From Heterotrichella gracilis (lineage: Eukaryota; Sar; Xanthophyceae; Tribonematales; Xanthonemataceae), in the NCBI GenBank assembly GCA_032358255.1, contig JAULBX010019966.1, positions 1 through 64,000 on the forward strand: 64,000 bases of DNA, written 5' to 3'. The notes under the pieces were generated by a model that saw only the letters and a program-made list of their open reading frames with translations, ran no database searches and was not told where the DNA came from. Shown piece after piece: positions 4,001 to 62,800 of this stretch. Numbering within the stretch: position 1 is the stretch's first letter; each line of letters starts with the position of its first letter. A program made the translations under genes and the position numbers.

Positions 4001-5244
4001 GCCCAAGCACCGCTGCCCCCCTCCTCCGCCAGTACCACGCCCAGGGCATTAAGCAGCCCCTTATCATTGGGACTCACCCGGTAGCTGGCTGCAGCAACCG
4101 CATCCACTGCACCGCCTCAGCGCAGTGGCGAGATCCTGTAACCACCATAGTTCCACTTGATTCCTAGCCCCGTCAAACTTTTTTTTATAAACTGCTCCTC
4201 TTCGTATGCACCTCAGCCTGCGACCGGCATTCCTAGACACTGGTGTCATGAAGCTCGCACACTGTTGTTGGTGGTCCGTCACAGCCGGCGCCGACTAGAC
4301 ACCCGACACCTCTGGTACATTGAGCGTTTAATCCCCATCGTCACAATCACATCACCGGGGCGCACTGTGGCTATGTGGCCATACCTGGGTGTGTGGCTGC
4401 TGCAGGGCAGATTTGAGCAACACCAGCGCCCCATGCAGCTTCTCAGAGACTGCCTTGAAGCTGTCAACCAGTTGGTGGCCACGCAGCGCCCGAGTGACTG
4501 GTGCATAGCCCACCACCCGACTGACCAGCTGCTGGGCGCTAACCACTACCTCACACACGCCACCTGCAGAGCATGTATGGAGGGTTGGCTGGTGGCCCAA
4601 CCCTAAAGGGTTTTAGAATTTAGGGCGTGGATCGGATCCCAGGATGCCCGGACAGTATCTTCTTGGCGCCGCTTGGCATCAGCTCGTGTAAATATGACTC
4701 CGCTGTTGATATGCATGCAGCTAACCCAGTAACTTAATAAGTTTGGAACGTGTAAAGTATTCAGCGCACGTGCATGGGATGCGAGGTAGGAGGTGCGTAC
4801 CCAGGGGGGGCTAGCTGTTGTTCCTCCGCACCCCACTGCACCTCCTCCACCTCATCAACTAGGCTGTGCTGTTAAAATGCATGCACCTCCACTAGTGCTC
4901 AGTGCGAAGTGGGCAACGCAACTGGCGCACATACAGGGCGCAGGGGTAACAAGGTAAACTAAACCCTAACCCTAAACCCTACATAACATACCTAGCGCGG
5001 CTAGTTGTGGCTCCTCTGGCCCCCACTGCACCTCCTCCAGCTCATCAACCAGGTTCTGGACGGCCTGCACCTGCCTCCGCAGCAGGTGGGGGTTGCTGCG
5101 ATGGACCGAAACCCCTTCAATGGAGGCGGTTGCCCTGGCTAGGGTGGGTGGGGCAGGGAGGGGGGTGGTGTCCAGCCGTACGCACAGCTTGCACGTTTCG
5201 TAGCAAGCACCCAGCACCTCAGCGATGAGGGTGCTGGCAGCCAT
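1004..5244 (-). pseudogene. ARM-repeat gene copy A (UND-like N-terminus, coiled coil, armadillo repeats), broken
   Basis: Exons read on the minus strand: 5244-4992 (N-terminus MAASTLIAEVLGACYETCKL), 4563-4385, about 4125-3994 (ending in a GC donor, CAG|GCAAGT), 3748-3517 (coiled coil) and one long exon from about 3008 to 1004. The first two exons resemble the helical N-terminal domain of plant U-box/ARM proteins (and the MLKL-like four-helix bundle). The long exon has a basic RKRAHG patch, a proline/alanine-rich linker, then at least six armadillo repeats of importin-alpha/Vac8 style (ALWALANLTWGNSG). No U-box is seen. Compared with copy C, the armadillo exon has a one-base frameshift near 2185 and a TGA in place of an arginine codon near 1480, and the third exon is 8 bases short. 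The family is known for protein-protein scaffolding; no specific partner can be inferred. A sequencing error could explain the frameshift but not all the lesions together. Confidence 0.7.
4809..4870 (-). repeat. Echo of ARM copy A exon 1 end
   Basis: About 60 bases in intron 1 repeat the 3' part of exon 1 (4996-5058), the segment coding for DELEEVQW, at roughly 80 percent identity by eye. It lies just downstream of the exon it copies. Confidence 0.75.
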
Positions 5245-6390
5245 GCTTGGCCACTTCCCAGGCAGGGGAGCTCGCTAGCTTCAGTCTTTGCTGCTCTTCA
5301 CCAACCTCCTAGCTTTATCTGACGTTCCCACCTTATACAGCGTCCAGACCTAGGCACCTGCGTGTCAAGGTGCAATACGTATGGATAAGGTCTGCAGTTT
5401 ATGCTGCGTCTAGGCCAGATTTGGTGGCCACTACACCATCTAGAACTCAGATGTAACCATTGGGCGATGATGAAAGGGCTTGGCACACACCGAAGAACTG
5501 GATGCAGCTCCGCAAATAGGCAATTTACACCAATATCCGGTCGAGATGCACTACTAGTGGCTCTCACGTCAACAAGCAGCGGCGCGTGCAGTGCAATGAC
5601 CCATGCATGCATTAGACTTACAGTTGCAATCAGCACTTCCACCGCGCAAACAAGCTCTTGAGCTCCTTGGCAGTGTACAATCCTAATGAATATGCGAGTA
5701 TCTCGACGCGCTGAGCAACGCCCGTTCACAATTGCGAGGTCGAGTACTCCACTTGTTTGAAATTCAAAATTAGGGTTTTGTCGGTTAAATTGTTTTCTGT
5801 TTCTTTTTCTGTTTTGGTCAAGCGGTTGGGCTGCCTTTGAAGTTACTTTGCAAGACGTTGCAAGCCCAACGTACCTGTTGTCGTAGCTTTGATTGGCCAG
5901 CTTACCACGAGCTGCATAGGCGCTTTGTAAGGTACCAAAGTGTGCCAACACCATGCATGCATGCATTGCGTACATCCCCACCAGGTACTTATAGACAACA
6001 GTTTGTGCGGTGCACAGGTACGCACACGGTATCAGTAAGCTGCAATTTACCATACACACAGCCCATCGCCTATACCTCCCGAGATCGCAGTCGCCTTTGC
6101 AAGGTTGTCTGAACCGATATCACGGGCCCAGCCCAAAACGCTGTAGCGCAATTCGCGCACGCTACACGCTGCAGCCCTACACCGCCAACGTTATCAGTCA
6201 AGTTTACCGTTTAATATGTAGGTTCTAAGTTGTAAACGGGGCACTCCACCGACTGAGACGCTCTCCACAAGTGCCCACACGGTGTTTCCGAAACCCTAGG
6301 CCTTTCGGAGGCTTTGGGGTTCCGGAAGGTGAAGACCGGGACCTCCTTGTTCAACACCTACCGCCCTTACCCCTGGTCTTTTGCCACAGT
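5245..6390. other. Spacer between head-to-head ARM copies A and B
   Basis: Non-coding by inspection. The last 100 bases before copy B contain TCCGGAAGGTGAAG, which also precedes the start of copy C, so part of the 5' leader is shared by the family. Alternating GCATGC palindromes occur near 5950. The long minus-strand open frame at 5298-6059 has no recognisable product and no support. Confidence 0.5.
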
Positions 6391-7176
6391 ATGGCTGCGA
6401 ATGACCTGGTTGCAGAGGTGCTGGTTGCCTGCTGCGAAACATACAAGCTGTGCGTGCAGCTGGACGAGACACCCCTCCCTGCCCACCCCACCCATGCCAG
6501 GACTACCTCAACTGGGACAGCCTCGGCCCACCGCAGCAACGCATACATGCTGCGGAGGCAAGTGCAGGCCGTCCAGAGATTTTTTGAAGAGCTGGAGGAG
6601 GTGCAGTGGCAGGTGAAGGAGCCACATGCAGTCGCCCTGGGTAGGTGCTCCCGCCACTGCACAATGGAAATTTCACATGTATACACCTGTGTGTGCCATC
6701 AGTAGCATCAGCGTTACACACCAATGCTGTGGATATATTATGCAATGTTATTTTATCCTAGAATCCTACGGTACCTGAATGGCTCCCCATGTGTAATATG
6801 TTTGAAGTGAGTATCGGAACGTGCCACCCAGATCCTGCTTGACAGTGGCAATTTGCACTGAGTGAAGAGGCATTGGTATGGGTGCAGTCTAGCCCTAAAC
6901 ACTACACAGCCAACGCTGCTCTGTGCAACTTGCAGGTGGTGTGCGAGAGGCTGTGTCCAGTGCCCAGCAGCTGGTCAGTGAGGTGGTGGGCTATGCTCCA
7001 GTCACTCGGCAAGCGGAGGGGTAGGCGGGGGAATGTGCAGCGTGGACCCGCGCTACGTTGGGCAGGTTCGCGCCAAGGTGGTAGCCCGGTATGGGCCAGT
7101 GGCAGGGGAGGGGTGCATGGAGGAGATTGAGCGCGAGGCATTGCGCAGTGAGGGATGCAATGCCATGCACGCCTAG
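6391..7176 (+). pseudogene. ARM-repeat gene copy B, internally deleted (N-terminal domain joined to C-terminal tail)
   Basis: Exon 1 is 6391-6640, starting MAANDLVAEVLVACCETYKL and ending at a clean donor GTAGGT. Exon 2 starts after TTGCAG at about 6935 with GVREAVSSAQQLVSEVVGY. Both match the first two exons of copies A and C. At about 7015 the sequence jumps to the very C-terminus of the family (VDPRYVGQV...MEEIEREALRSEG, stop at 7174-7176). All coiled-coil, linker and armadillo exons are missing. In the exon 2 frame a TAG follows within a few codons (about 7021), so a simple read-through product would be roughly 115 residues. The copy looks like an internal-deletion relic, though exon 1 itself is fully open. 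Confidence 0.7.
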
Positions 7177-11000: not shown

Positions 11001-14000
11001 AGGCGGCTCCAAAGCGCCACCCCAAACCGCACCCCCCCCGCCCCTGCCCCCACATCCGCAAACCCCGCATGCAGCGCCACGCAACGCGCAAGCTCCCCTT
11101 CCCCTCCTGCCATGTCATACTCCCCCCTGCCCTCCGCCTCACTGGAGGAGGCAAGGCCTGAGAGGGCTGCCTGTGCGGCTGTGGTGCGCTGCACAGCCCC
11201 CGCTCCCCGCTCTAAGCAGGCCAGCTCCAGCGCAGCCGCCACTACTTCCTGCGCCACAGGTAAGGGGATCAGGATTTGCAATGTGGGATTCCTTTGCGGC
11301 AAGGAGACTGTAGGATCCAACTTGTAAATCCAGGATTTGCAATGTGGGATTCCTTTGGGGCAAGGAGACTGTAGGATCCAACTTGTAATTCCACAAATGG
11401 CTATCACGCACACCAATTGTTTTTGAAGAATATTTAAGAGAGTTTTCCCTCCTAATGAGCGTTCCATCCTAGAGATTTCCCCTTCTTTATGAGGTTCCCC
11501 TCGTAAAAGAGTTTTCCCTCCTAATGAGGATAAATTTGATCTCAGCATTACAAAGCAGGTCGAAGTGCATCCTTAAATGTAAAGGTGAACAGTGCTAGTG
11601 GCACTCACCCTCCCATTCTTTGCGAGTGCCGCACTCCCCTGCAGCGCCCCCAGCACCGCAGCCAGCGCCACCTCCCAGCGCTCCACCCGGTACCTCCCCG
11701 CCACCGTTTTCAGCAACCGCACCGCCCCCGCGTGGTCCCCAGCCGCCGCGTGCTGCATCCCCAGCTGGGCCCCTATGCGCGTGATCATGCGCTCTGGGCG
11801 GGGGGTGGTGGCTGAGGCCAGCGCATGGGCGCCTGCAAGGATGTCCATGGCCTTGCGGGCAAGGGGGATCGCTGCGAGCTGCGCCTGCGGGACGCACGAT
11901 TTGTGGGTTTCAGCAAGGGTTTGTAAGGGTTTTGGTAAAGTTATTATGCGTGATGATGCAGTTTGGGCGGATAGGGTTGTGGCTGAGGTCAGTGCGTGTG
12001 CGCCTGCAAGGATGTTCATGGCCGTGCGGGCGAGGAGGATTGCACCCAGCTGCGCCTGCAGGATGGAGTTTGGGAAGGATTCTGGAAAGGGTTGTGCAAA
12101 GAGAGCCGATCCATACGCTAGATGCTGGTCCATGCACATAACATGCATTCCCACTCAAAAACAAGATAAGCAGTCAACTCCAATGCATGCAGCGCCAGCG
12201 AGGTCTTTCCTGACACTGCTTGTACGACTCCTGAGTACCCTAGGCGGCAACAAAGCGCTCAAGGGAAACCCTGGCACCGCACCTTATCAGCGACACACCC
12301 TATTGATAGTGATCACAACTCCCGTAGGATCCATATTAGCCCTTACAAACCCCCTAAACCCTTACCAGCAGGTAACCCACATACTCCTCCTGTGTGGGCG
12401 TGCGCTGCGACTCCCCCTCCTGAATCACCACCTGCCCAACATACTCCCCTGGCACAAAGAGGTCAAGGGGCACGCGGGGTTCCCCCCTCCACCCAGACAG
12501 GGCGCTCTTGGCCAGCTGTTGCTGCCTGATGACCACATCAGCAGCCGCAAGCAGGTAGGCGCTAGGCTGGACCTCCTGCGCCACACAGAAGATGCACATT
12601 CTCAGGGCTGGGCTCAGGTTTGTGGAGGGTGCTCTAAGCAAATATATACTAATCAGCTCTCCAAAAATTATGGTATTTTCCACTTTCCCCCATTTTCCCT
12701 CATTCTTTCCCATATTTTTCCACAGATTTTCCAGTTATTGTACCAACTACGAGTTTCTCTCCAGTATGTTTGCCGCACCTGTGCGGGGAGTGGGATGCTG
12801 TCCCCCTTGCCCACCAGCAGCTGCACAGCCACCTGGTACTGCCTTGCCAGCCAGGTGCAATGCGCGGCCAGTGCGGCGGTGGGCAGGTCGCCAGGGGGTG
12901 AGCCCCACTGGGTAACGTGGGAGGTAAGCTGGGCAAGGGCCTCGGGGAGGCGCCGGGCGGCCAGCAGGAGGGTCATCAGCTGCAGGAAACGGGGAGGTAC
13001 AATCAGCATGCAAAAGGGCAACATTGTCCTTTCTTTTCTATCCACTGGGGCTGCAAATACATGGTAAATGTGGTGCTCTGCTTGCACTCCCTTATTAACT
13101 CTGCAATTAGATTCTGCAAATTGAGGCAATTGCAGTACAAATCGTAGCAGAAGTACATATCCTCTATGTCATGCGAAGTACACTAAAGCTTTCAATACTT
13201 TATGTTTCAATCATTCTTATCCCCACCTTCAAGTGGACCCACTCCGCCACCACCGTCGCCTCGGCATAGGGTTTAGAATTAAAGCTGCAGGGTTTATGCT
13301 ACCTTGAAGTGGATCCACTCCGCCACCACCGCCGCCTCGGCATAAGGTTAGGGTCTAGGGTTTAGGGATTTCCCACCCACCTTGAAGTGGATCCACTCCG
13401 CCACCACCGCCGCATTGACATAGGGTTTACAGTTTAGGGTTTAGGGTTTTTGCCACTCACCTTGAAGTGGATCCACTCCGCCATAACCGCCGCCTCGGCA
13501 TAGCCCTGCGCAGGCGAGGGCCCCCGCGGCATGGGCACCCGCACCACCTCGCCATAGGCAGCCTGGTACATCTTGGTGGCTGTGGGCCAGTCGGTGCGGA
13601 ATTCAGCATAGGCTGCCACCTGTTGTCAGAGGGGAGAAAGGGTATGTGTTTAGGGTTTTAGGGTTGAGAGCAAAGCCGTTGTCAGGTGGGAAGAGGGTCA
13701 GGGCTTAGGGTTTTAGGGTGTAATCTCAGTGGTTGCGGGAACTCAGCATAGGCAGCAACCTGGTGTCAGGATTGAAGGGTGGCGCGGATGGGGCTTCTGT
13801 GTAGGAACTCAGCGTAGGGTGCCACCTGGTGTAAAATATCAGGGTTTAAAACATCACTACCGTTTGTAGGCTTTCATTTGCCATTTATAAAAAAAATCAT
13901 AATCAGTGCACCGTACTCACCTTGAAGTATGTGCGCACGTTGAGCTCGGGAGGGGGTGCACGCCTGTCCGCATGCATGGACAGCACCCTCCGAGCCGCAT

Positions 14001-16596: not shown

Positions 16597-18845
16597 ATGA
16601 ATCGCTCGTTTTCTGACGACAAGCTGGGCAAGAAGGTCAGGGATCCCGTGCTGCTGGTGTCACGATGGATAAAGAGCCGGAACCCGAGGGAGCGGGCGAT
16701 CCTGACGGGCATCGGGGCAGTGATGGTACGTGGCAGAGTGGGGTTGTGTACAACAACCTGGTAACACCGCAGACCTCCAGCAACGCATTGCTAGCTCTCC
16801 CAAGTGCCATGATGGGTCAACCTGTCAACCGCAGGTGCTTCTCACCATGTACATGGTCATTGAGGACCATGACACGCTCTTCATCTTGGCAGAGGTCATC
16901 CACTTTGGTGGCATCGGGATACTGGCATACAAGCTGCTGAGGAACAAGAACAGCGGGGGTATGTTTGCCTTGCACCATTTGCAGCACTGTTCAACAGGGC
17001 TCCATAGAAAGCTGTTTCCTGCTATGCAACCACAATGCTCATGCATATGAATTATTCCCTTGCAGCGGGCACTGCCTAGTAACACCAATCTTGCCCTCCT
17101 GCAGGGCTGTCGCTAGAAACCCAGTTCCTCACAGCCTTCTTCTTGGCTGTGCGTTTGTTGTGCAGGTGGGTTTCTGCTGCCCTGACACTGCGCTGTGTTG
17201 CTGTCCTTGTATGTGCTGTAACAGTTCCTGGTGCACCATGGCTGTCATTGCACTGGGTTGTAACAGTACCTGGTGCACCACGGGTGTCTTTGCATGTGCC
17301 GTACTGATACCCAATGCACCATGGGTGTCGCAGTTTTGTGATGGAGTACGACATCCACACCTTCCTGGACTTCCTGACGCTACTTGCGACAGGGGGCGTC
17401 ATCTACCTCATGTACTTCACCCTCAGGGACTCGTATGAGCACGAACTGGACTCGATCAAGACGTACTACGTGGTATGGCCTCCCTGCCCTGAGCGCCTTT
17501 TGAAGTTTTGCTATGGATTCTGTGGAGTTTGATACTGGCTGTATACTCTTAGACATAGGACTGCGCGCAGCGGATGAGCTCTCGGGGAAATGAGTGAAAT
17601 TATTAACAAATTGAGTGAACTCATGATTGGAACTTATGTGCTAACTGTGTGCCACAGATCATCCCCTCCCTCCTCCTGGCGCTCATCGCTCACCCAACCA
17701 CGAGGCACCCCTTCATCCTGAGGGTGCGTTTTCCATCAATGGCACCACACTTTCCATACTAGCTCGTAACTGCAACAGCGTGCCCAAGCATTGACCATTG
17801 CACACTGCTCATATCCTGGTTGCATCGAGATCCACCTACCCTGATGTACCCCCCCTCCCCGGTGTCCCCCGCCAGTCGCCAGGGCTGTGTGAGTGTACTT
17901 GGCGGCCGTGTCATGCTATGGTGTATGCGACTTGCTCATGCCATGTACAAAACGCTGAAGGGAGTAATGTGCATACCTGTCATCTGCTGCGAGCGGTGCC
18001 CACCCTACCCTATTGCTAACCCTCCCCCCTGGGTTTTCCCCACAGGTGGCCTGGCCTGTGTGCGTGTACGTGGAGGCGGTTTCAGTGCTAACACTAAACC
18101 CTAAACCCTAAATCCTAAATCCTAAACCCTCCTCCCGTGTCCCCCACCAGGTGGCCTGGGCCGTGTGCGTGTACGTGGAGGCCGTCTCGGTGCTCCCCCA
18201 GCTGCGCATGATGCAGCAGGCCAAGGTGGTTGAGAAGTTCACCGCGCACTACGTGTTTGCCCTGGGCCTGTCAAGGTTCATCAGCTGCGCGCACTGGATC
18301 CTGCAGCTCATAGACGGCAACAGCTACCTGCTGCAGGCCATCGGCAGCGGCCTGTGGCCCGCCATGGTGCTCATCTCGGAGATTGTGCAGACATTCATCC
18401 TGGCGGACTTCTGGTGAGCGGGTGCAGGAAGCAGCTAAATAGTTTACCTCACTGCTGTTGTGACTTTTATAGTCACCAAAAGATGGCATCCCTTCTACTT
18501 GTCCCGAAGATCATATGTTGTGTATGTATTGTATACATGAGCACTAGCTGAGCACTGATGCGTGAAATGTCAGTCCGGATGTGCAGAGCCTGTTTAGGGT
18601 TTAGGGTTCTTGTACATGGGCATCATGTATCTTTCTTCCTTCCTGGCTGCATCATTCTTACCTCGCAGCAGCTCATTTGTACTAATTTCAAAGCCTTGTA
18701 GTGGGATGTGTGAACTCTAGAGAGTTTCTTACATTGGGGACGCACAATTGCTGATATGGCTGTGCCACGTTCTTGCAGCTACTACTACGTCAAGTCATAT
18801 GCTGAGGGGAGTGGCGTCATTCACCTGGCAGCAGGCATTGTGTAG
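16597..18845 (+). CDS. ER lumen protein-retaining receptor family (ERD2/KDEL-receptor-like)
   Basis: This is a seven-membrane-segment Golgi/ER protein of the plant 'ERD2-like' (ERP) subfamily, which differs from true KDEL receptors by an extra N-terminal segment. Exons: 16597-16725, 16835-16958, 17105-17165, 17334-17472, 17658-17723, 18151-18413 and 18779-18845 (TAG). Family blocks are clear: MVIEDHDTLFILAEVIHFGG, GLSLETQFLTAFFLAVR, MEYDIHTFLDF, EAVSVLPQLRMMQQAKVVEK, FTAHYVFALGLSRFISCAHW and EIVQTFILADFCYYYVKSY. The protein is about 280 residues, as expected. Splice phases agree at the joins checked (AGG|GTG; TG|C TAC). Two introns carry echoes of their acceptor regions. Whether it binds a retention signal or has the less defined ERP role cannot be decided here. 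Confidence 0.92.
17210..17333 (+). repeat. Tandem echoes of an intron acceptor region in the ERD2-like gene
   Basis: Three imperfect units of about 47 bases carry CTGGTGCACCATGGCTGT (about 17229), CTGGTGCACCACGGGTGT (about 17271) and CAATGCACCATGGGTGT (17312-17330, followed by the real acceptor CGCAG). The two upstream units copy the sequence around the true 3' splice site. Confidence 0.7.
18031..18090 (+). repeat. Echo of the start of ERD2-like exon 6
   Basis: The segment copies 18141-18200, including the acceptor CCACAG and the coding start GTGGCCTGG (VAWAVCVYVEAVSVL). It is followed directly by a CCCTAAA array at 18091-18130. Confidence 0.85.
18091..18130. repeat. Interstitial telomere-type heptamer array
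   Basis: Five tandem CTAAACC / CTAAATC units lie between an exon echo and the true exon. Similar short arrays occur at 4957-4980, 13425-13450, 18593-18610, 41277-41310 and 38640-38670. They are too short and too internal to be a telomere. Confidence 0.85.
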
Positions 18846-21608: not shown

Positions 21609-24600
21609 TCACATCACATTGATTGGTGCCCGTATGCCTCCTTTAATCTCCTTCATGTTCCCCTCCCCCTCACTGAGCGCCGCATCCCCATACAGGAGCC
21701 CCACCTTGTCGCTAACCATCCCAAGGTAGCGCGGGTCCTCACTGCACCCTACCACGTCCCCCCCCTCCTGCGAGCACAGATTGACCAACAGGATCCTCGC
21801 CAGCTTCCGGTGCTCTTGCCTCCTCTCTCCAACAGCAATCCCCAGCTTGGCAACCGCGCGATCCAGCCCCCCCGCCGCCACCACCTCCGCCTTCAACCCC
21901 TCGGAGCAGGCGATGTTCCCAATGGCCTTGGTGGCGTGCTCCTGGCAGATATCAGAGGCCCCCCGGGCATCCATGAGCTGAGCCAAGGGGCGGATGACAG
22001 GCCTGATTGAGCCCCACAGCAGGTTGCTCTTGTCAACCGTGATGTTGGCAAACAGCATGGCAGCATAGCACCGGGTGTCCCCACCTGGGCCCAGCAGCCG
22101 CGCAGCGATGTCAAAGCCCCCTGCCTCCATAAGGGCGTCGACTATGCCTGTTGGTGCGTCTTGCGTGATGTTGGCCATCACCCACGTGGCGTTCTCCTGG
22201 ATCTCTGTGGCGCCATCCAGCGACATCAGATGCACCAGTGGGGGGATGGCGCCGGCGGCCGCAATCGCCGGCCCATGGTCGTTGTTTGTAGATGTGAGGT
22301 TCACGAGGGTCAGCAGAGCAGCCTCCTTGCTCGCATCCTTGCTGTCCTCCTTGATGAGCGCTACCATGTGAGAAATCACGCCTGCAGCCACCAGCCTCCC
22401 CTTCTTCCCTGGCCCGCCCATCGCCAAAAGGGCGCACAGCCGGGCGGACGCCTGCTGCAAGGCAGGCTTGGCACTCGACAGCATCTCCATCAGCTGTGGC
22501 ACCACGCCAGAGGCAAACACCCTGCCCCTGAGCCTGATTGCCTCCGCATCCCTTGCCTCGATTGGCCACACCGCAGCCAGCACCCCCGCCGCGTACGCCA
22601 CCCGCTGCCGAAGCCTGCTGCCATGCGCCGCCGAGGGCCCGGAGGCCAGCAACTGCAGCATTGCATCGCTGGCGCCAGTGACACCAGATCCCCCCACCTA
22701 CTGATCTGAAAGAGCGCCCGCGCTGCCGCCTCCTGGCTCTCCACATCCTCCGCCCCCACAAGCCTCACAAGCTGCTCCACCGCCCCCCTTTCAAACTCCT
22801 CCCCTTGCCACGGCTCCTCCGCAGCGCATGCGATGTCGCCCAACAGTTGCGCAGCCAGCAGCGGCACCACGCCCTGATCCGCACCCTCGGTAGGGTCTGC
22901 CGGGTTGCTGATGAGCGCCTGCAGGGCGGTGACCACACCCGCACCCACCGCATCTTCCGCCCGGCTCTTACCCACATTTACCAGCAGGCTCGAGCCAGGT
23001 CCCAAATGCCTTCAGGGTGCTTTCCAGCCAGGCAGGCTCGCTCAACTTCAGCAATTCCACCACCTCCTGCACCTTTCCCTCTATCAGCAACTGGAATGGG
23101 GTGGAGGGGCGGGCATTCCCTACTTGGCGGGTAGACCGGCGAGGGCGGGGATCCTGTCTGCCAGGCCGGTCATTACCCTGCGGGGGAGGGTGTGGGTGTA
23201 GAAACGCGTGCGCCATTTCGAATGGCTGGGGAGATAGTGGGGAAAGGAAGTGCCGCTGGTTCAAATGGCGCGGGCGTCGCTGTTGGTGATGCCCCTGCTG
23301 ATGGCGATGGAGGGGATGGAAGGGGTGGTGGTGCCGCTGACGGCGGTGAAGGGGATGGAGGTGGTGGTGGTGCTGACGGCGGTGGAGAGGATGGAGCTGA
23401 CCCGTCCCTTCTGCATTGCACCTTTGCCGCCTGTCCCGGCAAACCACCACCATCACCAACACCATGTGCCCGCTTCCTGCCTCCGGTCCCCTTGTTCCCG
23501 CTGCCGCTGCCACGGTTGGTGCTGGGCCCAGCCCCACCAGTGGAGAGCGCATGTGGCATTGCGTCACCATCATTGCCATGCATGCGTGCGGGGTTTGGTG
23601 CTTCACGCTCCCCTTCCCCCGCCTGGATCATCAGCTCTGTGCGCAGGACCTCCATGGCGGCGACGTGCTGCACGGGTGGGTGGGTGGTGTTGGGTAAGGT
23701 GGGTTTCGTAGCCAATCCGGGCTCATATGCTACATGAATTACTTGATGGCAATTAATTTAATACAGAACTTTTGTTTCACAGTATTGTACTAGGCCACCA
23801 TGGCATTGGCGCACTGCCTTATTGAACAGGCTAAGGGTTCAGATCAAGGGTGTATCAATGGGCCAGTGCTGCCTGGCACAGGTGGGTGTGTACATGCTTC
23901 TAAACAACGAGGCCCCGATACATCCAGGGGTCCAGAGTTTGAAGTTTACTTGGTAATTACATCACGTCCTCCCCACCTTTTGCACTGCAGCCACCCCCAG
24001 GCTCTTCCTCCTGCCCTTCCTGCCCTCCAGCTGCACCCGCACAGCCTCAGCCTTTGCCTGAAGCTCAGCCATCTGCGCCTCCAATTCAGCCAGCTGCTTT
24101 TCGTCGCCCGCTATCTTCCCATCCAACTCCTGCTGCTTGGCTAGGCGCCTGCCATGTCGCTGTGCACCCCCCCAATCTCCTCCCGCAGCAGCTGGGGTGT
24201 GAGGCTCCATGGGTGCGGCCCCAGCCAGGCAGCGCGCCTGCGCCTGCAAGTTTACATGGCGCATGTAACGATTGGGAAAATTCTACACAAATCCAAAGCC
24301 TTGCCTCTGGTCTGGGCATACCCCAAACGATATCCTATTTATTGCCAATTTTGGACTACCCGATATGGCTATATTAAAATTGGCATGGCAAGTATGTACA
24401 CAACCAGGGTGCAACAACCGGCCAGTCAACAACTGGCATGTACCCCTGTATTACATTCCCATGCATGTGCCCATGATTTTGAGTCCAAACTTGCATGCAC
24501 AATGGCATTGATGATGCACCTATCAGAGCAACATGGTGTGGATGATCCCAGCTCTGGCTGTTAAAAACATGCACACAATGCCATATCATGTTGGGTGTGG

Positions 24601-25828
24601 ATGATCCCAGCTCCAGCTTATAATGACGTGCACACAATATGAAGGTCAAAGCTAGCTACACTTGCCTTCTGTGCCCGAGCATCACTGTCCCTATCGGCTA
24701 GCAGGGTGGCCAGGTCATCAAGCAGACGCTGATCTTGAGGGGCCACTCGGTAGTGGGGGGTGGCAGTGAGCTGCATTGCCTCGCCACACAGCCCCAGTGC
24801 AGGGCCAAGGTCCTGTAGCCACCACAGGTATAAATTGCTTTGCGGCTCATGATGCTAGCCATACAAGACATGATGCATCTCACTGCGCGTGACCAAATCA
24901 AATAAATGCAGATCTTGATGGAAAAGGTCTTATTTTAAGTAACTGCTCCTCAGTTCAATGTGAGGGCAAAGGTTGCAGAGAGAAAAAGTGAAAGAGAGCC
25001 AGGCTGGTCCTCCTGCCACGTGTTCCTATCATTTGTCGTCAAACCCAGATAACCTACAAGTTTAGAGAGACACTAGGCCCAGTCCTGTCGGTCCTGTGCT
25101 AGCAGCTGTGGCTACACCTTACCTGGTTGTGTGCCTGCTGCAGGACAGAGTTTACCACCACCACCCTGCTTGGAGAAAGACTTGAATTTGCCGATCAGTT
25201 GGTGGCATTGCAGCGCGCGAGTGACGGGCGCATAGCCAACCAACTGGCCGATTTGCTGCCGCACATTAAGTATTGCCCCAAACACACCACCTGCAGTACA
25301 CATGGGAAGGTTGGCTGCTGGCTGAGGGCAGGGTTGGGAGTGGAGATTTTGGGGCTGGCCCAGGTTGACATGTAGATATCCTGGCCCCACCTGCACTTTG
25401 TTTCCATCACAACCTGTGTGATGATGTGGGGGGTGCTTAGAGTCATTGGTTAGTCGCACAGGGTTTGTGAGGCAACATGCTCAGGCCCCAGTGGCACAGT
25501 TCGCTTGCAAAGCGTGAGAAACAATCAATACCGGTTGATGCTTGGAGCTGGCATGGAAGCATCATGCTTAGTGTCACTCCGTACCCAGGGCGGCTGTGTG
25601 TGACTCCTCCACCTGCAGCTGCACCTCCTCCAGCAGGTTTTGGACGGCCTACACCTGCTTCCGCACCAGGTATGCGTTGCTGCGGTGGGCCGAGGGCCCC
25701 CCGGTGAAGGTGGTTCCCCTGGCATGGGTGGGGTGCGCAGGGAGGGGGGTCTTATCCAGCCGTAGGCATAGACTGTACATTTCGCAGCAAGCGTCCAACA
25801 CATCTGCAATTAGGTTACTCGCAGCCAT
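21609..25828 (-). pseudogene. ARM-repeat gene copy C, broken
   Basis: The exon order matches copy A: 25828 to about 25586 (MAASNLIADVLDACCEMYSL), about 25290-25125, about 24820-24670 (GC donor AAG|GCAAGT as in A), about 24247-23972 (coiled coil, AELEAQMAELQAKAEAVRVQ), about 23670-23170 (linker and basic GRKRAHG patch) and the armadillo region down to 21609. Armadillo repeats are well preserved from 22690 to 21700 (AMLFANITVDKSNLLWGS). Lesions include TAG for glutamine in exon 1 (about 25650), a 16-base deficit near 22685 that shifts frame, and further frame changes near 22980 and 23150. The tail (SEDPRYLGMV...) matches copies A and B. The copy is unlikely to give a full protein; the 360-residue armadillo block is the longest intact part. 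Confidence 0.75.
24530..24645. repeat. About 65 bp tandem duplication in an ARM copy C intron
   Basis: Two copies of a unit with GTGTGGATGATCCCAGCTC and GTGCACACAAT, at about 24533-24580 and 24594-24638. They are non-coding and do not match a neighbouring exon. Confidence 0.75.
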
Positions 25829-26153
25829 GCTGTAGCGACAACCCAGGGTGAGGGCCTTCACCTTCCGGACCTAGATGAGGGGTATGGGGGGTTAGTGTGC
25901 AGTGCGTCCCCCCGTTTCCTTTCGTCTTAAGAGTGATCACTGCGGCTCGGTCGGCTGAGCTTTGCTGTATGGGTGAACTAGCGGAGTACCTTTGCTGTCT
26001 GCATGTCATGGAAGCTACACACCACTGGGATTTGGTTGGGCTTTGCAAGCACACTGTAGGATTTAGGGGGCTGTGGGTAGGCTCTTCCAACAGCATTGTA
26101 GCTAAATTCCTAGGGTTTGGTTTAGGGTCATGGGTAGGGTTTTGCGGCCTTAC

Positions 26154-28330: not shown

Positions 28331-28367
28331 AAAAAAGGGACACCGCGCTCATCCCAGGGGCGGAGCT

Positions 28368-40148: not shown

Positions 40149-40154
40149 TATAAA
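40149..40154 (+). promoter_or_regulatory. TATA box of the chitinase gene
   Basis: TATAAA (in CATATAAAGG) lies 73 bases before the chitinase start codon at 40222, a plausible distance for a core promoter with a short 5' UTR. The call rests on sequence and position only. Confidence 0.5.
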
Positions 40155-40221
40155 GGCCGCTTATACAGTACTTCTTCGTTGCACCTGTACATCATAGCGA
40201 CGGCATCCCTGAAGTTTCCCT

Positions 40222-43200: not shown

Positions 43201-46200
43201 GTGCTTGCAAAGCCTCACCAAGACCCTGTGTTGTGTTGCTCTCATGACTGCCGGGCAAAATCAGGCCCCTGCACCACTGCATTGTCATCTACCGGAAGCT
43301 GTACTAAAATATTATCTGCCCCTTGTGAAAACACCACACATTAGCATGAACATGTGCACAATCTTCTGGTGTCAACCTCTTTCCCGCCTTCCTCAGGTAC
43401 TGCCAGAGCCTGGGTGTGCGTGTGATGCTGTCCCTGGGTGGTGCAGCAGGGGTGTACGGATTTGCTGCCGAGGCGGATGGGGGTCCCTACGCCACCCAGA
43501 TCTGGAACATGTTTCTTGGGGGCAGCAGCGCCACACGCCCCTTTGATGATGCGGTAATGGATGGGGTGGACCTGGATATTGAGGTAGGAGCCAAAACCCT
43601 AGCCAAAACCCTACACTCAAACCCTTTGATGATGCGGTGATGTATAGGGTGGACCTGGACATTGAAGTGCTGTGCCAAAACCCTAGCCAAACCCCTATAG
43701 AAGCCCTGCACAAACCATTCCTCTCCAGCCATCTGCCTTGCATGTGCTTGGGCCTGGGACATTGCTTGCTCCTTTGCATGCACTTTCACTCATTGGGTAA
43801 ATGCATTCAAGTGCGATGCTGTTGCCAATGCATCCCTCCCAGAGAGATGCGCACCACAGCCATCAAAACCATAGTCCTCCTCCTCACCTTACCACCATCT
43901 CCAACCCCCCTCCTGCAGGGCGGCAATACCCAAGGGTACTCCACGCTTGTGGACAGCCTGCGCACCCTGTACGCCCAGAACCCTAGCAAACCCTACATCA
44001 TCAGCGCCGCCCCCCAGTGCGTGTACCCCGACGCCTACCTTGGCCCTGCACCAGGCAAGGCGCTCACTACCTCCTGGTTCGACTGGGTGCACGTGCAGTT
44101 CTACAACAACTACTGCGGGGTGCAGAGCTATGGGGGCGCAAGCTTCAACTTTGACCAGTGGGATGCCTGGGCGAGGACAATCAGCAAGAACCCTAACACC
44201 AAGGTAGGGTTGAGCGCATTGCCGCTGCACCAGATATTTGCTGCACGGCGGGGCAATCATGATGTTCAATAACAATCATTGTAACTATAATTACAGTATA
44301 CACCTAGTCATCGTATCCAGCTGTTTCCTGGACAGCGGGTCCGGATCGTGATTGAACTACATATTAGTGGCCATATATACAAGTTCCTTCTGCCCTGTAC
44401 CTACGCTCTACATTGGCACTAGCGCGAACTTCCTGGGTGCGCCCGCCAGCGCCAGCTCAGCAGGCAAGGTGTACCCTTGCTTAGGGTTTCTTGCATCCAC
44501 CAAAACCCCCTTGCCCCCCCTCCCCAGGTCCTCTTGGGTGTCCCCGCCAGTGCCAGCTCAGCAGGCAGCGGCTACGTTGACTACACCACACTCACTGCCA
44601 TCCTGACCAGCCTCATCGCAAAGTACCCATCCACATTTGGGGGCGCAATGGTGTGGGATGTGGGCACCAGCGCCAACAACCCAGTCGGTGGCCAACCCTA
44701 CGCAAAGGCAGTAAGAGATTTTCTCAATGCAAATTGTGGGGCGTCCTCCCCTCCTCCAGGGGGTGTAATATCCTCCCCCTCCCCCCCACCGCCAAAAACA
44801 ATCGCATCCCCTTCCCCGCAACCACCCCTATTGGCCGCGTCTCCCTCACCACCACCGCCAAAGGTCACTGCTTCCCCCTCCCCACCACCACCAAAACCAC
44901 CCACCAGCAGCCCCAGTCCCCCACCATCACCACCACCAAAGCCACCTACCAGCAGCCCCAGCCCGCCACCAGCCAAAAGCCCCTCCCCGCCACCTGCCAA
45001 GAGCCCCAGCCCCCCACCACCCTCCCCACCTACCAAGAGCCCCTCCCCACCCCCACCCCCATCGCCACCGTCAGCAGGTAATCACAGCACCAATCTGCGG
45101 CAGATGTATCATGTCCTTTGCATGAATTTGTAACCCAGCCACTATCCCACAGGTCACGAGCAGTCCAATGCTAGGTTTTTAGATTGCTATTGCATTTCAG
45201 CACAAAATGCATCACCAATGCATCGGGTTTGAGCATCCAGCCATGCTGCCACCAAAAAAGTATAATAATAAGAATAGTATAGTTAGTTGTTAACAGCAGA
45301 TAGTGGACATTACTCCTCCCAGCCTATGCTTATCCACCAACCATAGTATCTCCCCCTTGCCGCAGGCACCAGCCCCAATGTGGTTGGCTACTTTGGCTCC
45401 TGGTACTGGTACTCCAACGCCAACTCCATCCCCGCCTCCTTCCTCACCGCCCTGCCCTCCCTCACCCACATCAACTACGCGTTTGCCTCCATCTCCTACA
45501 GCAAGCCCACAGACTCCTACTACCTAGACCTCACAGACCCTTGGGTGGATATGGCGCAGTGCGTGGGGGGGATGAGCTGCCCGTCGCAGTGCATCGCATA
45601 CAACTCCACATGCACCGCAAACTACAGTCCCCAGCTTTCTCTCATCCCGGACACAAAGACAGCGGTCCCAGGGGGGACGTGTTATGGTACAGACCAGTGT
45701 GTCAACAAGGGGGGTGGCGCTGCCTACCCACGCATCTGCAACACTTACCCGGCAGGTGGGGACAGAATAAACGACTGTGATTTATAACAAAATCCATCAA
45801 TTCATCAGTTGCTCTATTTCATGCATTTATGCATGCACCCATGCTCTAATTATTATTACCTTATAGTTTGCACACCCACCCTGCAGGAAACTACCCAGGC
45901 TACATCTGTGGCCAGATTGCGTACCTGCAGCAGCAAATGGCCACTAAATCTCCGGGGACCAAATTGATGCTGTCTGTGGGGGGGTGGTATGACTCAAACT
46001 ACTTCAGCCCTGCAGCCTCCGACCCCTACAGGTATGGGCTTCAGGTTTTGAACTTCGTGCAGTGTGCAGTGTTGCAGTACCCATTATGTGGCCCTGGATG
46101 CACACATCAGACTCCCCGATTGCTGCCTTGATTGCCCTCAAAGTGGCAATGCGCCTATTGTTCCAATGTTGACCATCAAAGCCTGACGAGATGTCATCGA

Positions 46201-50062: not shown

Positions 50063-53000
50063 TCAGGGCTTGATGTGCAGGATGTACTCGGGGTAGGCCT
50101 GCACGCGGTCGTACACTGCGTGGATGTTGATGCTGGTGGTGGAGTGGGCGCCAGGGGTTGGGCGCGTGCCCCCTGCAACAGGTAAGCAGGTTTTCAGGAT
50201 TGAGCAAAGGTGTAGTTGTATTTAGGGTGGGGCGCATGGCACCTGCAACAGCAAAGATCATGAACTGGCAATTGGAGTTACATCAACCCTGCTGAACATC
50301 CTCAAGATGTACTTGCAGTTTATTGGGGTGGGATGGATGTCACGATGAACTCTAATATGTGTGCATTGCTGGCCACGCCAGCGTGTGCACTAGGTCTGCA
50401 AGGAGTGCCACGTCCAAAAAACCCACACTGTAGGAGTTCATCTGCCTAACAGGTACGCTTGGCAGGACAGCTGGCATAGTACAGCTTTAATGTTCACACT
50501 ACAATAGTGACGAGTTCATGCCAGCGCACCTGGAATACCAGCCACGCTCTTGCCCAAAACCACCCTGCACAGCATCATCGCGTACTGTCCCTGGCACTCA
50601 AATTTGAAGCCACCGGGCACTTTTGGTACAGGTTGAGCTGCGGCAACTCCCCTTGCAACTGTCTGTGCTCGGCGTTGTGCTGCACCACGTCCCCTTGCAA
50701 CAAGTACCTGGCGGACATATGGACCGATACTGCCAGATGGAGGTGCGCCAAATGGCTGTGCGCCAAATGGCTGTGCGCCAAATGGCTGTGCGCCAAATGG
50801 AGGTCCGCCAAAAGGAGGTGCGCCTAATGGCTGTGCCCCAAATGCAGGAGCGCCATATGGAAGTGCGCCAAATGGAAGTGCACCATATGGCGCAGCCACT
50901 GGCATGGCCACCCTGCAATGCAATCAATTTGCTTTACTATGCCACTCTACTACTGTGTATGGTGCCACCCCCACTGTTAGAAATGGCGCAAGCACTGCCA
51001 GGATAGAGCTGAGTGGCGCATGCTTGCGCACGACAGCTTGCTAACCTGGCTGCATTGCTAACATGCGTGTTACCAAGCTAATTGACATTGCCACCCCCAT
51101 CTACATGCCCAGCACGCACCTTCTGCTGTACTCCCAGCTGTAGGAACAATGTTCTGCAAAGTAGATCCCTGCGCGGCACAACCAGAGCATGAGTAAGCTT
51201 TTAATGAGGAAGCGATCCAGTATCTCCCATGTAAGTAATACACATGTGTGTAACACGCCCAGAGGCCACCATGATCCATGCCCAAGCTACATGATACGAT
51301 TTCGCGTGCTGCCAATCTCGTTATGCCAAATCTTGCACAGTGGACCAGTAACCGCTGACAGCATCAAACAGGGAGCGGGTCCGTCTTGTGCGTGTTTGCA
51401 TGCATTGGTAACAGGTAGCTATCTGCAATGTTGAACATAAGCTAACATCATGCCACCAACATTCTGTATCATATACTGGTGTCAACGACTGCCATTGAAT
51501 ACAGGAACCGCTGTGAGATGTGCGTCGGCAGTGATTCACTCCCAAATCAATCCCCTTCCTCCCAGGATTGATTTCCAAACAGACTGCTGTGTATGCTACC
51601 CTGTACCCACCTACCTTGCCCCAATGCCCCAGATGGGTTGCTGACCCTTGGATCAAACCCTTCCTCCAGAATCGAGTCGATATTGGCGAGAGCAGTACCG
51701 TGGAACAGCCACTGCTTGTTGGCGGCATCTTCTCTGCCGCACTCCCGCACAATTCTGGTGTGAGCCAGTTGATGGGCTAGCCACAGCTCAGGGTTTTGGA
51801 TGCGCTGCGACACAAAATAACTTGAAGTATGAGTGAACTTACAATTTAGAAAAGTGTAATTTGAACATGCCTCATGCAGCTGCAGCATAGAAAGTTTTTT
51901 CCTCAATGTCCAATCCAAAATGGAAGAAATACAAATAGCAACGGTAGGACTGCAGCTTGCATGCCTATGTTGATTTTGAGGCATATTCCGGTGCTCAACA
52001 GCAGCTGTGAGGCAAGCACTTACTGGCATGCAGCAGCAAGACTACCAACCTGCCGGTGCAAACCCCAAATTAGGGGACACTACCACCCTATACGCATTTC
52101 CCAGGGCACTGTCTTACCTGGACCCTGACCACTGAAAAGGGGCATCTGCCGCCCCGCTGTAATGCTTGCGACACACGCTCCACCTCCTCCTCCAGCACTC
52201 TGGTATTTGCGTCTTGCACCCTATTGAACACACAGCAGCAAGCCATGTATGGGCATGGTTGTTCACTGCCAGCGCATGCACTCCTACCACAGCAGATCTA
52301 GAAGGGCAGAAAATGGGACCATAGAAGGCTGGGCTGGGCCGGACTGAGTTAAACAAAATTGCAGCTCAACCTACTTTTCAAGCATGTAGGAATTGCCACA
52401 GGTTGATGATGCCCGAGTGTCATTAATTGGCACATATAAAAGCGTTGCATGGTGCGCAGCATCATACCCCTCTGGCTGTTCCTGCACCGCCCACATCAGC
52501 GCCGCATCGGGGTCGCCACCAGCCGCTCGCAGCGCCTCCACAGCCCTGCTCTCTGAGAGCCCGTTGGCCAGCAGGGGCTCCAGTTGCTCTGCACCAAGCA
52601 CAGATGTGTTCAGGGCGTACGTGAAACACCTGTGGGCACTTAGCAATCCAGCCAGTTATGACAATGATTACGATGGTGGACTGTGATGGATAATGATATT
52701 GTGATGGTACAACCTGCAAGTGTTGTAATTCACACACCCAGCAGAAGCCAATAATGTGCTGGAGAGTACAGTAGCCAGTCAGTATACATACAATAAAAGC
52801 TGCCCGTGTACTGGCTATGATGTAAACCCACCAGTGGTTGCTGATTGTTTACTGTAGCCAACATCTGCTGCACGCATAGCGCAGCATTTCCCCTGCAGGT
52901 ACAGAGATTTACACATGCTTAACCCTGTCCACCTTACCCCACACCTACCAAAAGTGTAGGGGGCCGCTCCACTACCAGTTTTGGGCCAGGGCAAGTCCAC

Positions 53001-59800: not shown

Positions 59801-62800
59801 GAAAGAAGTGCAGTTAGATGCGACAGCGAGAACAGGGCGATGGTAAAGAAGGGCCCAGCTGATCTGCATGACCGGCGCAATGACAGTGGCGGGGAACAGG
59901 CGGGGGACCAGGGTTTATAATGGTGCGGGGGAAGGAGTCAACGGGGTCTATAGCGGGATGCATGGTGGTGCATGGCAGTGTAGATGCAGGTGGTGCATCA
60001 GGGGAGGGGGGGTGCTTGGCCTGGGTGTGGGGTCTATAGACAAGGGGAAAATAATGCAATTAAATGCAGCAGCAGCAGATCTGGATTCTAGAATGGAGAG
60101 GTAAATGAGAGGGTCCATCTGGTCAGCAGCCCTGGGCAAAACCGCCCCCGCCGTGACCCCACCACCGCCAACGCATCCCCACCACTATCCCCACCTTGTT
60201 CAGCCTGGTGAGCCAGAATGCAGCAAACACCAGGAATAGGACCACCACCGCCACCACCGCCACCACACCACCAGCACCCCCAGTACTACCGCCACTATCC
60301 CCACCCCTCATCCTGTTCAGCCTGGTGAATAAAACTGATGCAATACAGAAAAACAGCACCACCACCACCAACCCCCACCTTGTTCAGCCTGGTGAGCCAG
60401 AATGCAGCAAACACCAAAAACAGCACCACCACCAGGTAGGTGAACCAGTACTTGAGCTGGTTATCCCCCTTGAAGGTCACCCGGATCAGCACGCTCAGGG
60501 TCTTGCCAAACAGCACCGACTGAGTCCCCAAAATGCCCGCAAATACGGAATACGAGGTGGGCAGCCAGAAGGCCCAGGGCCCCGTGGCGGTGCCAAGGTT
60601 TCCCTTCCCCACCCTGCGCTTGCCCAGGTGGTAGACACAGTACATGCCCACCACTGCGGCCACTCCCAGGCACAGGTAGGTGATGTAGGCGGGCCTGGAC
60701 GGGAGGGAAAGGGAGGGTGAAGGGGAGATTGAGTGTTGAAAAGTGCGGCTTTGTAGTGTAAGAGCATGGGTGCATGGGATGAATATCTGGATTTTGCCAC
60801 ATGATACATGTGTGAGAATGGGGCGATGGGTTTAGGGTTTCCCCATACCAAGCATGCTACCATATGGGTGGGTAGCCATGCGGCGCCGCATGAGCCACAT
60901 CAGAAACAATGAGATGCAAAATCCTACAGCCTAAACCCAACCACCCTCGGCCAATACTGTGCACTATTGATGCAGCGCATCGCTCTGTCCGCGTCACAAA
61001 ACCCTCCCAAACCCCTACCCCTACGCTCCACTCACTCTGTGTCAAGTTGCTTCAGCTCCCGCACCGTGAATGTCTCGCTGGTGTGGTTCCTAAAGCTCTA
61101 TATCCTCGTCACCCAAAACCCTCCCAAAACCCTACTCCCACCCCCCACTCACCCTGTGTCAAGCTGCTTGAGCTCCGGGAAAGTGGACATCGGCTGGTGG
61201 TTCCTAATACCCTAGCAAAAAGAAACCCTGTAACCAGACCCTAAGTATCGACACTTTTGTTATGTCCCCACTCACTCTGTGTACAGCTGCTTCAGCTCCG
61301 GCACAGTGAATGTCTCGCTGGTATGATTCCCAAAGCTCTATTTCCTCGTCACCCAAAACCCTCCCCAAACCCTACTCCCACCCCCCACTCACTCTGTGTA
61401 CAGCTGCTTCAGCTCCGGCACCGTCAAGACCTCGCTGGTGTGGTTCCCAAAGCTGACCAGCATGATGCAGCCTGCTACAATGAGCACGGTGGAGAAGATG
61501 ATGCGGCCGGTGATCTGCGCATAGGCAAGGTGGTTGTAAGTATTGTGTGATCATGTTGGAGCATGATGGGACATGATCAGTGTGAGGACAATGGCGATTT
61601 GATTGTGATCTGCGCACACGGCAATGTGGTTGTAAGTATTGTATGATCATGTTGGAGCATGATGGGACATGATCACGGTGGGGACGGTGGTGGCAGTTAC
61701 AAATTTTGCCCCCGTGATCTGATCTGATCTCATGACATGCACCCCAGATAAGCCTTTCGATGTAAATATATAGACCTGGATCATGTGAGGTACCTAGGTG
61801 GAGGCCTCATTTGTAGCTGCGACTATCAAGTTGGGATCATGCGGGGGTGCAGGAACCAACGATGGAGGCCTTTCTTGCAGTTGTAAGTGTAACCAAGTTG
61901 GATCATTTTGATCACTCCACACCTGCTCGTGGAGGACCAGGTAGGCAAAAATGACGTTTGACACAAACTGCACCGACCCCAGCGCGGCCAGGAGCGACTG
62001 TGCGGCAAACCCTGCGCAGGTAAGATGATGTTCAGGGTATAAAGGGGTGTAATGGGATTGGGATTTTGGGTTTTACGTGTGCTGCAGGCCACATGTGTGG
62101 AGCGTATATAAGGCGGCAAGTGACCAATGAGCTTGTATCAGGACAGGCTGCGTGGAGTTCTATTTTGCTTTTTATGGCACTTTATCAGTGTATTAATTGG
62201 ATTTGATTATCAACATCAAAATCCAAGTTTTAATTCCAGGCGGCCTCTGGTGTCACCATAGGCAGGCATAGGCAGGCGAGGTGTCAAGGGGTGCACACCA
62301 AAAGAAAGGCAACATTGCGAATGCTGCCCACTAGAATTTAGGGTTTAGGGACTAGGGTTGGGCTTTGTGCGCACCGAAGGAGGCAAAATTGAGGATGTTG
62401 CCCACAAGGAAGACTGATGCGCCTCCCTGCCACGCACGGAATTTCCTGCACCCATACATTTAATGATATCATTTTATTGGCCGATTCATCGCATTTATTA
62501 ACGTGGACACATTGCCTTGGGATGCATTTCTGTAACACACAATACATGGCCCGTAATACGCCATGTACCATCAAAAAGCGTATTGCTTTGAGGCATTTGT
62601 AAGGCGCCGGTGCCATGGCCCAGCCATCCGTTTGCCACAGGTTTGATTGCAAAAATTCCAACTAGCCATCCCGATTCTGGCTGCGATCATATGCAATTTA
62701 TTTGCATGCCATACACTTGCCTGTGCCAGGGTATGCACACTGCAGGAGTGGGCTCTGCCCTGATAGGGTTTTGGATGCACCGATACGGCAGCTAACATTG

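Follow-up and report, generated by a model that had tools for sequence, protein, structure and literature searches.

Degenerate exon-edge copies in the introns of a Heterotrichella gracilis assembly, with telomere repeats at about half of the copy junctions

Small duplications left by the repair of DNA breaks form the closest described background to the locus considered here, a 64,000-nucleotide stretch of the Heterotrichella gracilis assembly GCA_032358255.1 (contig JAULBX010019966.1, positions 1 to 64,000; hereafter the window), in whose introns the edges of adjacent exons recur with their splice sites as degenerate copies that we call echoes. Passages of PMC8355091 describe small tandem duplications in mouse and human cells that form when complementary 3′ overhangs are filled in by CST, the telomere fill-in complex, with Pol alpha primase and the ends are then joined. 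In rice, where such duplications are described as patch-mediated, an insertion of 10–1000 bp often amounts to a full or partial tandem duplication, and some of these carry additional sequence originating at most 200 bp away, according to a section of a review (PMC7407515). CST-Pol alpha fill-in followed by end joining would be the nearest tested mechanism for the echoes, which share with such staggered-break duplications that they are direct, adjacent, tens to hundreds of bp in scale and independent of any pre-existing repeat. Unlike them, the echoes amount to dozens of fossils at exon edges within only 204 kb, with a telomere repeat at about half of the junctions.

Telomere repeats at break-repair junctions are themselves known as interstitial telomeric sequences, which the relevant parts of PMC7215372 describe as sometimes accompanied by random sequence or a target duplication. 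Among the horse loci given there, 3 of 66 show duplication alone and 2 more show it with further changes, and the share of human interstitial telomeric repeats that falls in introns is reported in the same parts as compatible with random insertion. For Arabidopsis telo boxes, the densities quoted from PMC3022908 are 150.7 per Mb in introns and 155.2 per Mb in the genome, i.e., no intron enrichment, and that passage proposes telomerase acting on exposed ends as the origin of plant telo boxes. The tracts described below likewise consist of the repeat found at chromosome ends and lie at junctions, but they are concentrated in introns (1819 per Mb) and tied to exon-edge copies.

Duplication across an exon boundary is already known gene by gene, and the pervasive, telomere-linked form is what we regard as a new variant; in the open-licence literature, as judged by titles, abstract openings and passages, we found no account of introns so widely carrying copies of exon edges together with telomere repeats. 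Part of PMC4974935 describes a tandem duplication across an intron–exon boundary of potato RdRp, on the acceptor side, but this is a single locus that gave a new intron and exon, whereas here the extra copies sit in existing introns and decay. The minisatellite of human IFI6 (6-16), as cited in PMC4526556, repeats splice donors at the end of an exon; it concerns one gene whose donors are used, whereas here many genes are involved and the echo splice sites are known from sequence alone. In Lipomyces stwintrons, a duplication of the donor element is ascribed (PMC7138796, in the portion cited) to repair of an asymmetric break with a 3′ overhang, but it spans only 4–7 nt and nested introns are formed. 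The Rogers AGGT model of intron gain has an intron start with a copy of the downstream exon and end with a copy of the upstream exon; the echoes instead run exon edge then donor, or acceptor then exon edge, each on its own side, in agreement with an earlier note on the window, made by eye from the letters, which held that tandem-duplication models of intron gain predict a different arrangement. Nor do they resemble introner elements, which are similar introns at unrelated sites: the 45 spacers compared (the sequence between an edge and its echo) match other loci only over 23–42 nt. Minisatellites differ in turn, given that 33 of 54 echo-bearing edges have one echo, that spacers are often non-homologous and that few arrays were found by the tandem-repeat finder TRF.

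The window (1–64000) was analyzed with three further eukaryotic stretches of the same assembly (68.5 Mb, 903 contigs), C50 (1–50000), C150 (1–50000) and C220 (20001–60000, positions being counted from the start of the fetched stretch, so that L024 8557–8704 corresponds to C220 28557–28704). Unless the window is named, all results refer to this 204-kb set. Gene content and the TTTAGGG telomere would suggest a green alga as its source. Stretches C1 and C100, from contigs of the assembly judged to be bacterial contaminants (GC 36%; open reading frames of at least 300 aa covering 83% and 58% of bases), served as negative controls. Gene models came from our own small hidden Markov model gene finder, trained here, which gave 50 genes with 304 exons and 254 introns and a splice consensus of CAG/GTGAG at donors and TGCAG/G at acceptors. 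It had taken many echoes for additional short exons; 24 predicted exons were flagged as echoes by rule and dropped, leaving 230 introns. All counts of edges and introns hinge on these models, and one echo (4809–5053), in a gene copy modeled on the wrong strand, was left out of them.

Self-alignment (direct pairs 25–800 nt apart, score of at least 40, simple and telomere repeats masked) recovered 37 local direct pairs in the window and 32, 7 and 34 in the other three eukaryotic stretches, compared with 3 and 1 in the bacterial stretches and 0.0 in three order-3 shuffles. Within 800 nt, 110 pairs were direct and 5 inverted. The window pairs cluster into 25 arrays, 19 of which span an exon boundary. 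The earlier note had placed echoes of donor-side edges downstream and of acceptor-side edges upstream, and an edge test run before the removal of echo-derived exons found copies on those sides at 36 of 227 donors and 34 of 231 acceptors. Copies on the wrong side were seen at 15 donors and 13 acceptors; of these 28 cases, 25 involve a predicted exon no longer than 102 nt, and 21 involve one that was later dropped as an echo. No echoes were found in reversed introns, in one random region from another gene per edge or, for 166 donors and 166 acceptors, in an intron of the same gene that does not adjoin the edge, and the reverse-complement control gave one match, so that the self-alignment which the note had proposed as its check, with shuffled and non-adjacent controls and here applied to 204 kb, places the echoes far above chance.

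After exon removal, echoes stand at 31 of 217 donors and 23 of 218 acceptors, that is, at 54 of 435 testable edges and in 49 of 230 introns (about one in five), with 81 echo copies in total. The window accounts for 18 of these edges, 17 of its 93 introns and 28 copies; the window arrays lie in the genes that the note had named, but its count of about forty is reduced to 28, some of the echoes seen by eye falling below threshold. Echo-bearing edges number 18 of 177, 18 of 109, 1 of 72 (C150) and 17 of 77 by contig. C150, although from the same assembly and similar in GC, also has few telomere motifs and may represent a different genomic environment or organism.

Most edges have one echo (33), with two, three and four at 16, 4 and 1 edges, the range of one to four that had been described. 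In the best echo per edge, the exon part has a median length of 45 nt (range 16–106) and the offset runs from 80 to 373 nt with a median of 136.5; only 22 of 54 offsets fall between 80 and 120 nt and none below 80, the shortest for any copy being 62 nt in one further copy, which does not bear out the proposed unit of 75–120 bases. The proposed decay with distance from the exon is also not seen, since among the 21 arrays with several copies, 10 have their best match in the nearest copy and 9 in the farthest, with 2 ties. At our threshold, the window yielded none of the copies said to lie just past a stop codon; one clear case in C220 (L024 8557–8610 and 8651–8704) does echo a coding end that includes the stop codon and has no splice site.

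The exon parts of the best echoes are 0.89 identical to their edges in the median, a divergence of 11% that sets them apart from assembly duplicates. Gaps in the echo alignments break the reading frame in 26 of 33 cases, a broken frame or an in-frame stop is present in 32 of the 81 copies, and the splice dinucleotide (GT or AG) is intact in 43 of 54, against a neutral expectation of 42.8. Mismatches by codon position (123/96/248, about 1255 sites each) roughly fit a constrained exon beside an unconstrained echo, and for this reason the echoes appear to drift close to neutrally. The third-position count exceeds the approximately 215 predicted for a neutral echo beside a constrained exon, a small excess that is unexplained. 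In-frame stops number 3 against 12.3 under uniform change, an expectation that is too high because some of the differences lie in the exon. Two apparent signs of constraint on the echoes were rejected: the third-position bias is mostly synonymous change in the real exon, and an echo-specific bias in arrays with at least two echoes (77/45/100) is confounded, given that the branch of the older echo includes exon evolution. Direct local copies on the side expected of tandem duplication, with mostly frame-breaking gaps and splice dinucleotides decaying at the neutral rate, support the note's suggestion that tandem duplications arose across exon boundaries and were afterwards left to decay freely.

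At least seven contigs begin with CCCTAAA (TTTAGGG) arrays, taken as chromosome ends, and the TTTAGGG found at echo junctions appears to be the genome's own telomere repeat. Its presence at the copy junctions is new here, the earlier note having passed over it. For the telo box AAACCCTA, the density is 1819 per Mb in introns against 223 in intergenic DNA and 22 in exons, making the repeat about eight times commoner in introns than in intergenic DNA. A telomere 7-mer lies within 30 nt of the junction at 27 of 54 edges, compared with 7.8% of intron windows overall and 14.6% in the same introns, and the motif is present in 40 of 49 echo introns versus 55 of 181 others. Echo introns are longer; by length class, the motif occurs in 13 of 16 versus 20 of 60 introns of 250–400 nt and in 25 of 31 versus 15 of 25 above 400 nt. 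Before echo-exon removal, telomere 7-mers peaked within about 45 nt of both intron ends, and a weaker peak is found in introns with no detected echo.

Within spacers of at least 80 nt (32 of 81), the motif reaches 42.7 per kb near the splice site, 3.7 in the middle and 32.2 near the junction. It is present in the spacer yet missing beyond the echo in 15 arrays, the reverse being true of 2. Junction tracts are C-strand at acceptors and mixed at donors, an orientation that we judge uninformative: a TTTAGGG strand contains AG, and selection might disfavor it ahead of an acceptor. Where telomere sequence directly abuts the break (11 junctions), its register runs on into the exon letters for 1.27 nt, compared with 0.34 nt by chance (p = 0.0004), a result from few and partly dependent cases that is suggestive only. 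The tracts fit filler added at the junction, as described for interstitial telomeric sequences (PMC7215372, in part), and a splicing role of the motif near the real splice site would yield part of the same pattern.

On the exon side, the copied sequence stops sharply, homology continuing past the exon break in 2 of 76 cases (null 0.5%), and none of the echoes is split. On the intron side, spacer and the flank lying past the echo share homology in 28 of 54 arrays at z > 2, or in 32 of 54 when required to exceed all nulls, and in 17 of 53 arrays such homology covers under 0.3 of the spacer length. Part of many spacers is thus likely to be filler and not duplicated intron, and for a third or more of the arrays it is doubtful that the intron part was duplicated at all. 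A distant source of the filler was sought by comparing 45 spacers with the 204 kb and was rejected: longer matches were confined to the same array, and the 23–42-nt matches to other loci read as telomere-like or simple repeats. No microhomology extends past the alignments at the junctions, with 1.69 and 1.38 matches in 6 where about 1.6 would arise at random.

Our preferred reading, to which we assign a probability of roughly 0.55, is that the echoes are small tandem duplications from the repair of staggered breaks, with telomere filler, and that the surviving set has been filtered by purifying selection. Staggered breaks would be repaired by end joining, with complementary overhangs presumably filled in beforehand so that the stretch between two nicks is doubled, leaving small direct duplications mostly 80–400 bp apart. 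At open 3′ ends the telomere machinery (telomerase or CST) may add telomere repeats, and probably other filler too, which would leave the TTTAGGG/CCCTAAA tracts at junctions; to join CST fill-in with telomerase filler in this way is our own proposal. Duplications internal to exons would be removed by selection, and those spanning an edge tolerated, splicing using the copy that is joined to the rest of the exon, i.e., the first donor or last acceptor. Because that site would stay in use, each edge would acquire its echo on its own side, while the unused copy drifts. One member of an edge pair would remain under purifying selection, edge pairs would therefore outlive intron-only and intergenic pairs, and exon edges would come to dominate the surviving record. 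Many of the events may belong to an older pulse.

The boundary preference that this reading has to account for is strong. Of 73 arrays, 56 span a boundary, 4 lie at coding ends (one clearly takes in the stop codon, three are ambiguous), 6 are intron-only, 5 intergenic and 2 exonic. When each array is kept rigid and its position shuffled, the expected boundary share is 0.33 against the observed 60 of 71 (p = 5e-19), and p is still 1e-9 or 6e-6 if boundary pairs are taken to be twice or three times easier to detect. Survivorship may nevertheless be the source of most of it. As an internal control, the two parts of 53 arrays were scored separately: 43 exon parts exceed the threshold by themselves, compared with 10 (unmasked) or 5 (census masking) intron parts, a detection factor of 4.3–8.6 that raises the expected boundary share to 0.68–0.81; with 8.6 the remaining excess has p = 0.27. 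Arrays at least 94% identical comprise 1 boundary and 3 noncoding cases, compared with 59 and 8 below 94% (Fisher p = 0.01). The earlier note had argued that ordinary duplications should not prefer exon boundaries. That argument is weakened by the four- to ninefold better recognition of exon parts and by the lack of any preference in the few young arrays.

Several observations weigh against this account. Random duplication with simulated decay gives a boundary share of 0.29–0.35 when the median identity is 80% or more (seven settings), against 0.77 observed, and reaches only 0.29–0.62 over all 15 settings, the upper end belonging to older, more decayed arrays; pure random duplication as first modeled was accordingly rejected, and only the internal detection control rescues it. 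With the lower factor of 4.3 the boundary excess remains significant (p = 0.001), and the factor may itself be too high, because the control presumes that the intron part was copied along with the exon part. Homology over the full spacer is found in 13 of 53 arrays, compared with 84–96% when simulated at 0.09–0.13 changes per site and 64% at 0.18, and with the splice site excluded only about one-third of 46 spacers exceed the 95th percentile of the null. The young set is small, its four arrays including two in one intron, and at an identity of at least 92% it divides 3 and 3 (p = 0.04). Among the 60 arrays at boundaries or coding ends, just one reaches 94% identity, where steady-rate simulations would place 13–20% of boundary arrays. 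An old pulse, or the collapse of near-identical repeats in the assembly, would both explain this scarcity of very recent boundary copies. Random telomere insertion leaves the eightfold intron excess of the repeat unexplained, and 49 of 81 copies are free of frame breaks and stops in the aligned stretch. A true boundary preference would stand if the intron part was never copied, the detection factor then being inflated.

Three other explanations include such a preference. In this lineage the telomere machinery (telomerase or CST-Pol alpha primase) might contribute to break repair at exon edges, repeatedly copying edge and splice site into the intron and seeding telomere repeats there. We think this unlikely, but if true, a boundary-targeted repair by the telomere machinery would lengthen introns and supply them with ready spare splice sites. 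An equally tentative alternative places the telomere-like tracts first: just inside intron ends they would stall forks or break, and replication or repair, restarting about 100 bp back in the exon, would have one breakpoint held close to the edge and so truly favor boundary duplications. The 7-mers near both intron ends, also in introns without echoes, and those at the junctions are in its favor, as is the register continued by exon letters at 11 junctions, few and partly dependent as those are; yet a switch away from the exon should yield intron-only duplications equally, and there are 6 of these against 56 boundary arrays (decay may hide some), and the copied unit should carry the tract, which is missing beyond the echo far more often than the reverse (15 versus 2 arrays). 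Somewhat less probable again is a templated process, such as the copying of pre-mRNA or spliceosome-protected fragments into DNA, which the earlier note had also raised. The boundary share of 60 of 71 against 0.33 by rigid shuffling and the 17 of 53 arrays with little intron-side homology, as if only edge and splice site had been copied, speak for re-copying of this kind. Against it, controls from other genes and non-adjacent introns have no copies, inverted pairs number 5 against 110 direct, a stop-codon edge without a splice site is echoed as well (one clear case), the four youngest arrays show no boundary preference, and about half of the arrays keep flank homology, though about one-third once the splice site is excluded. 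Templated copying is not required if the survivorship control holds; because that control presumes copying of the intron part, which is doubtful, it gains some weight and staggered-break duplication is made less sure.

It is improbable that selection maintains the echoes as functional alternative exons or as spare splice sites. The excess of third-position differences (248 versus 215), the 3 in-frame stops against 12.3 (a fair expectation being lower), the 49 copies without frame break or stop and the 24 echoes read as exons by the gene finder all lean that way, but 26 of 33 gaps break the frame and splice dinucleotides decay at the neutral rate. An assembly artefact or ordinary minisatellites can hardly be the answer: the tandem-repeat finder does detect some arrays (61, 84, 83 and 117 bp), yet misassembled reads would not differ by the median of 11% seen between copies, just one echo is present at 33 of 54 echo-bearing edges, and bacterial contigs of the same assembly have almost none.

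If staggered-break duplication is the correct reading, the introns would preserve, across the genome, a fossil record of small duplications from break repair that can still be read because the exon copy is held constant, in which such duplications are linked to telomere repeats within the same introns. The echoes would also form a standing supply of duplicate splice sites and a possible source of new exon ends or introns. For annotation they call for caution, given that a gene finder can call fossil echoes exons, as it did 24 times here.

Pfam matches in the window genes agree with most of the names used below: ER_lumen_recept (KDEL receptor), MMR_HSR1 (EngB-kind GTPase), Mur_ligase_M, Glyco_hydro_18 and Mg_trans_NIPA; for the gene that the earlier note called TRAPPC11, a Pfam search of one piece returned no match. 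In the ARM copy A gene (minus strand), the 55-nt echo at 4809–4863 is 85% identical to 4999–5053. Two related ARM-repeat-like gene copies are seen by eye at 1004–5278 and 21609–25870, the earlier note listing echoes for copy A only. Also on the minus strand, 11270–11393 is a young intron-only tandem duplication (61-bp period, 97%), among the few recent events. The TRAPPC11-named gene (minus strand) has an acceptor-side echo at 11948–12063 of the exon starting at 11884 (83% identity). Further along this strand, the exon ending at 13461 has three donor-side echoes (13369–13423, 13301–13344 and 13224–13269; 87, 95 and 89%) with telomere-like tracts between them, and the exon starting at 13619 has two on its acceptor side, within 13727–13832 (edge test). 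In the ERD2-like gene (plus strand, ER_lumen_recept), the exon starting at 18151 is echoed twice on its acceptor side, at 17864–17912 and 18038–18089 (edge test), and a telomere-repeat tract of 5.9 copies of AACCCTA (18090–18130) separates the nearer echo from the real acceptor.

The MurE-like gene (minus strand, Mur_ligase_M) has an acceptor-side echo at 29457–29481 of the exon starting at 29301 (edge test). A probable echo called an exon by the gene finder (29571–29654, minus strand) pairs with 29725–29766 inside exon 29701–29934. On the same strand, the edge test placed two acceptor-side echoes (30845–30879 and 31017–31042) of the exon starting at 30742, a donor-side echo (32049–32099) of the exon ending at 32170 and an acceptor-side echo (33901–33975) of the exon starting at 33837; the acceptor-side echo at 31373–31421 of the exon starting at 31281 has a telomere-like tract in its spacer. 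An intron of the MurE-like gene also contains a 14-bp tandem array (30294–30371).

In the EngB-like GTPase gene (plus strand, MMR_HSR1), two donor-side echoes of the exon ending at 36910 lie at 36967–37000 and 37099–37126 (edge test). Also on the plus strand are donor-side echoes of the exon ending at 37522 (37561–37616, 37697–37722 and 37808–37840), found by both tandem-repeat and edge tests, an acceptor-side echo at 37954–38034 of the exon starting at 38137 (90–91% identity) and, by the edge test, a donor-side echo at 38506–38561 of the exon ending at 38364. The edge test further gave, on the plus strand, a donor-side echo of the exon ending at 43583 in the GH18 chitinase-like gene (43622–43679; Glyco_hydro_18) and an acceptor-side echo of the exon starting at 44528 (44431–44466).

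In the NIPA-like gene (minus strand, Mg_trans_NIPA), an acceptor-side echo of the exon starting at 59714 is found at 59850–59902 (edge test). Farther along the minus strand, the exon ending at 60379 has two donor-side echoes (60301–60358 and 60189–60249; 79 and 93%), the farther copy being the closer match, and the exon ending at 61393 has three (61266–61337, 61141–61207 and 61028–61097; edge test). The minus-strand segment 61605–61685 is a 91% copy of 61510–61589, which consists of 5 exon and 75 intron nt, and was classed as intron-only. A weak echo seen by eye at 62279–62337, of an exon near 62377 that is absent from the gene model, falls below the score threshold. Elsewhere in the window, a 15-bp tandem repeat of 10.6 copies, possibly coding, occupies 50732–50890.

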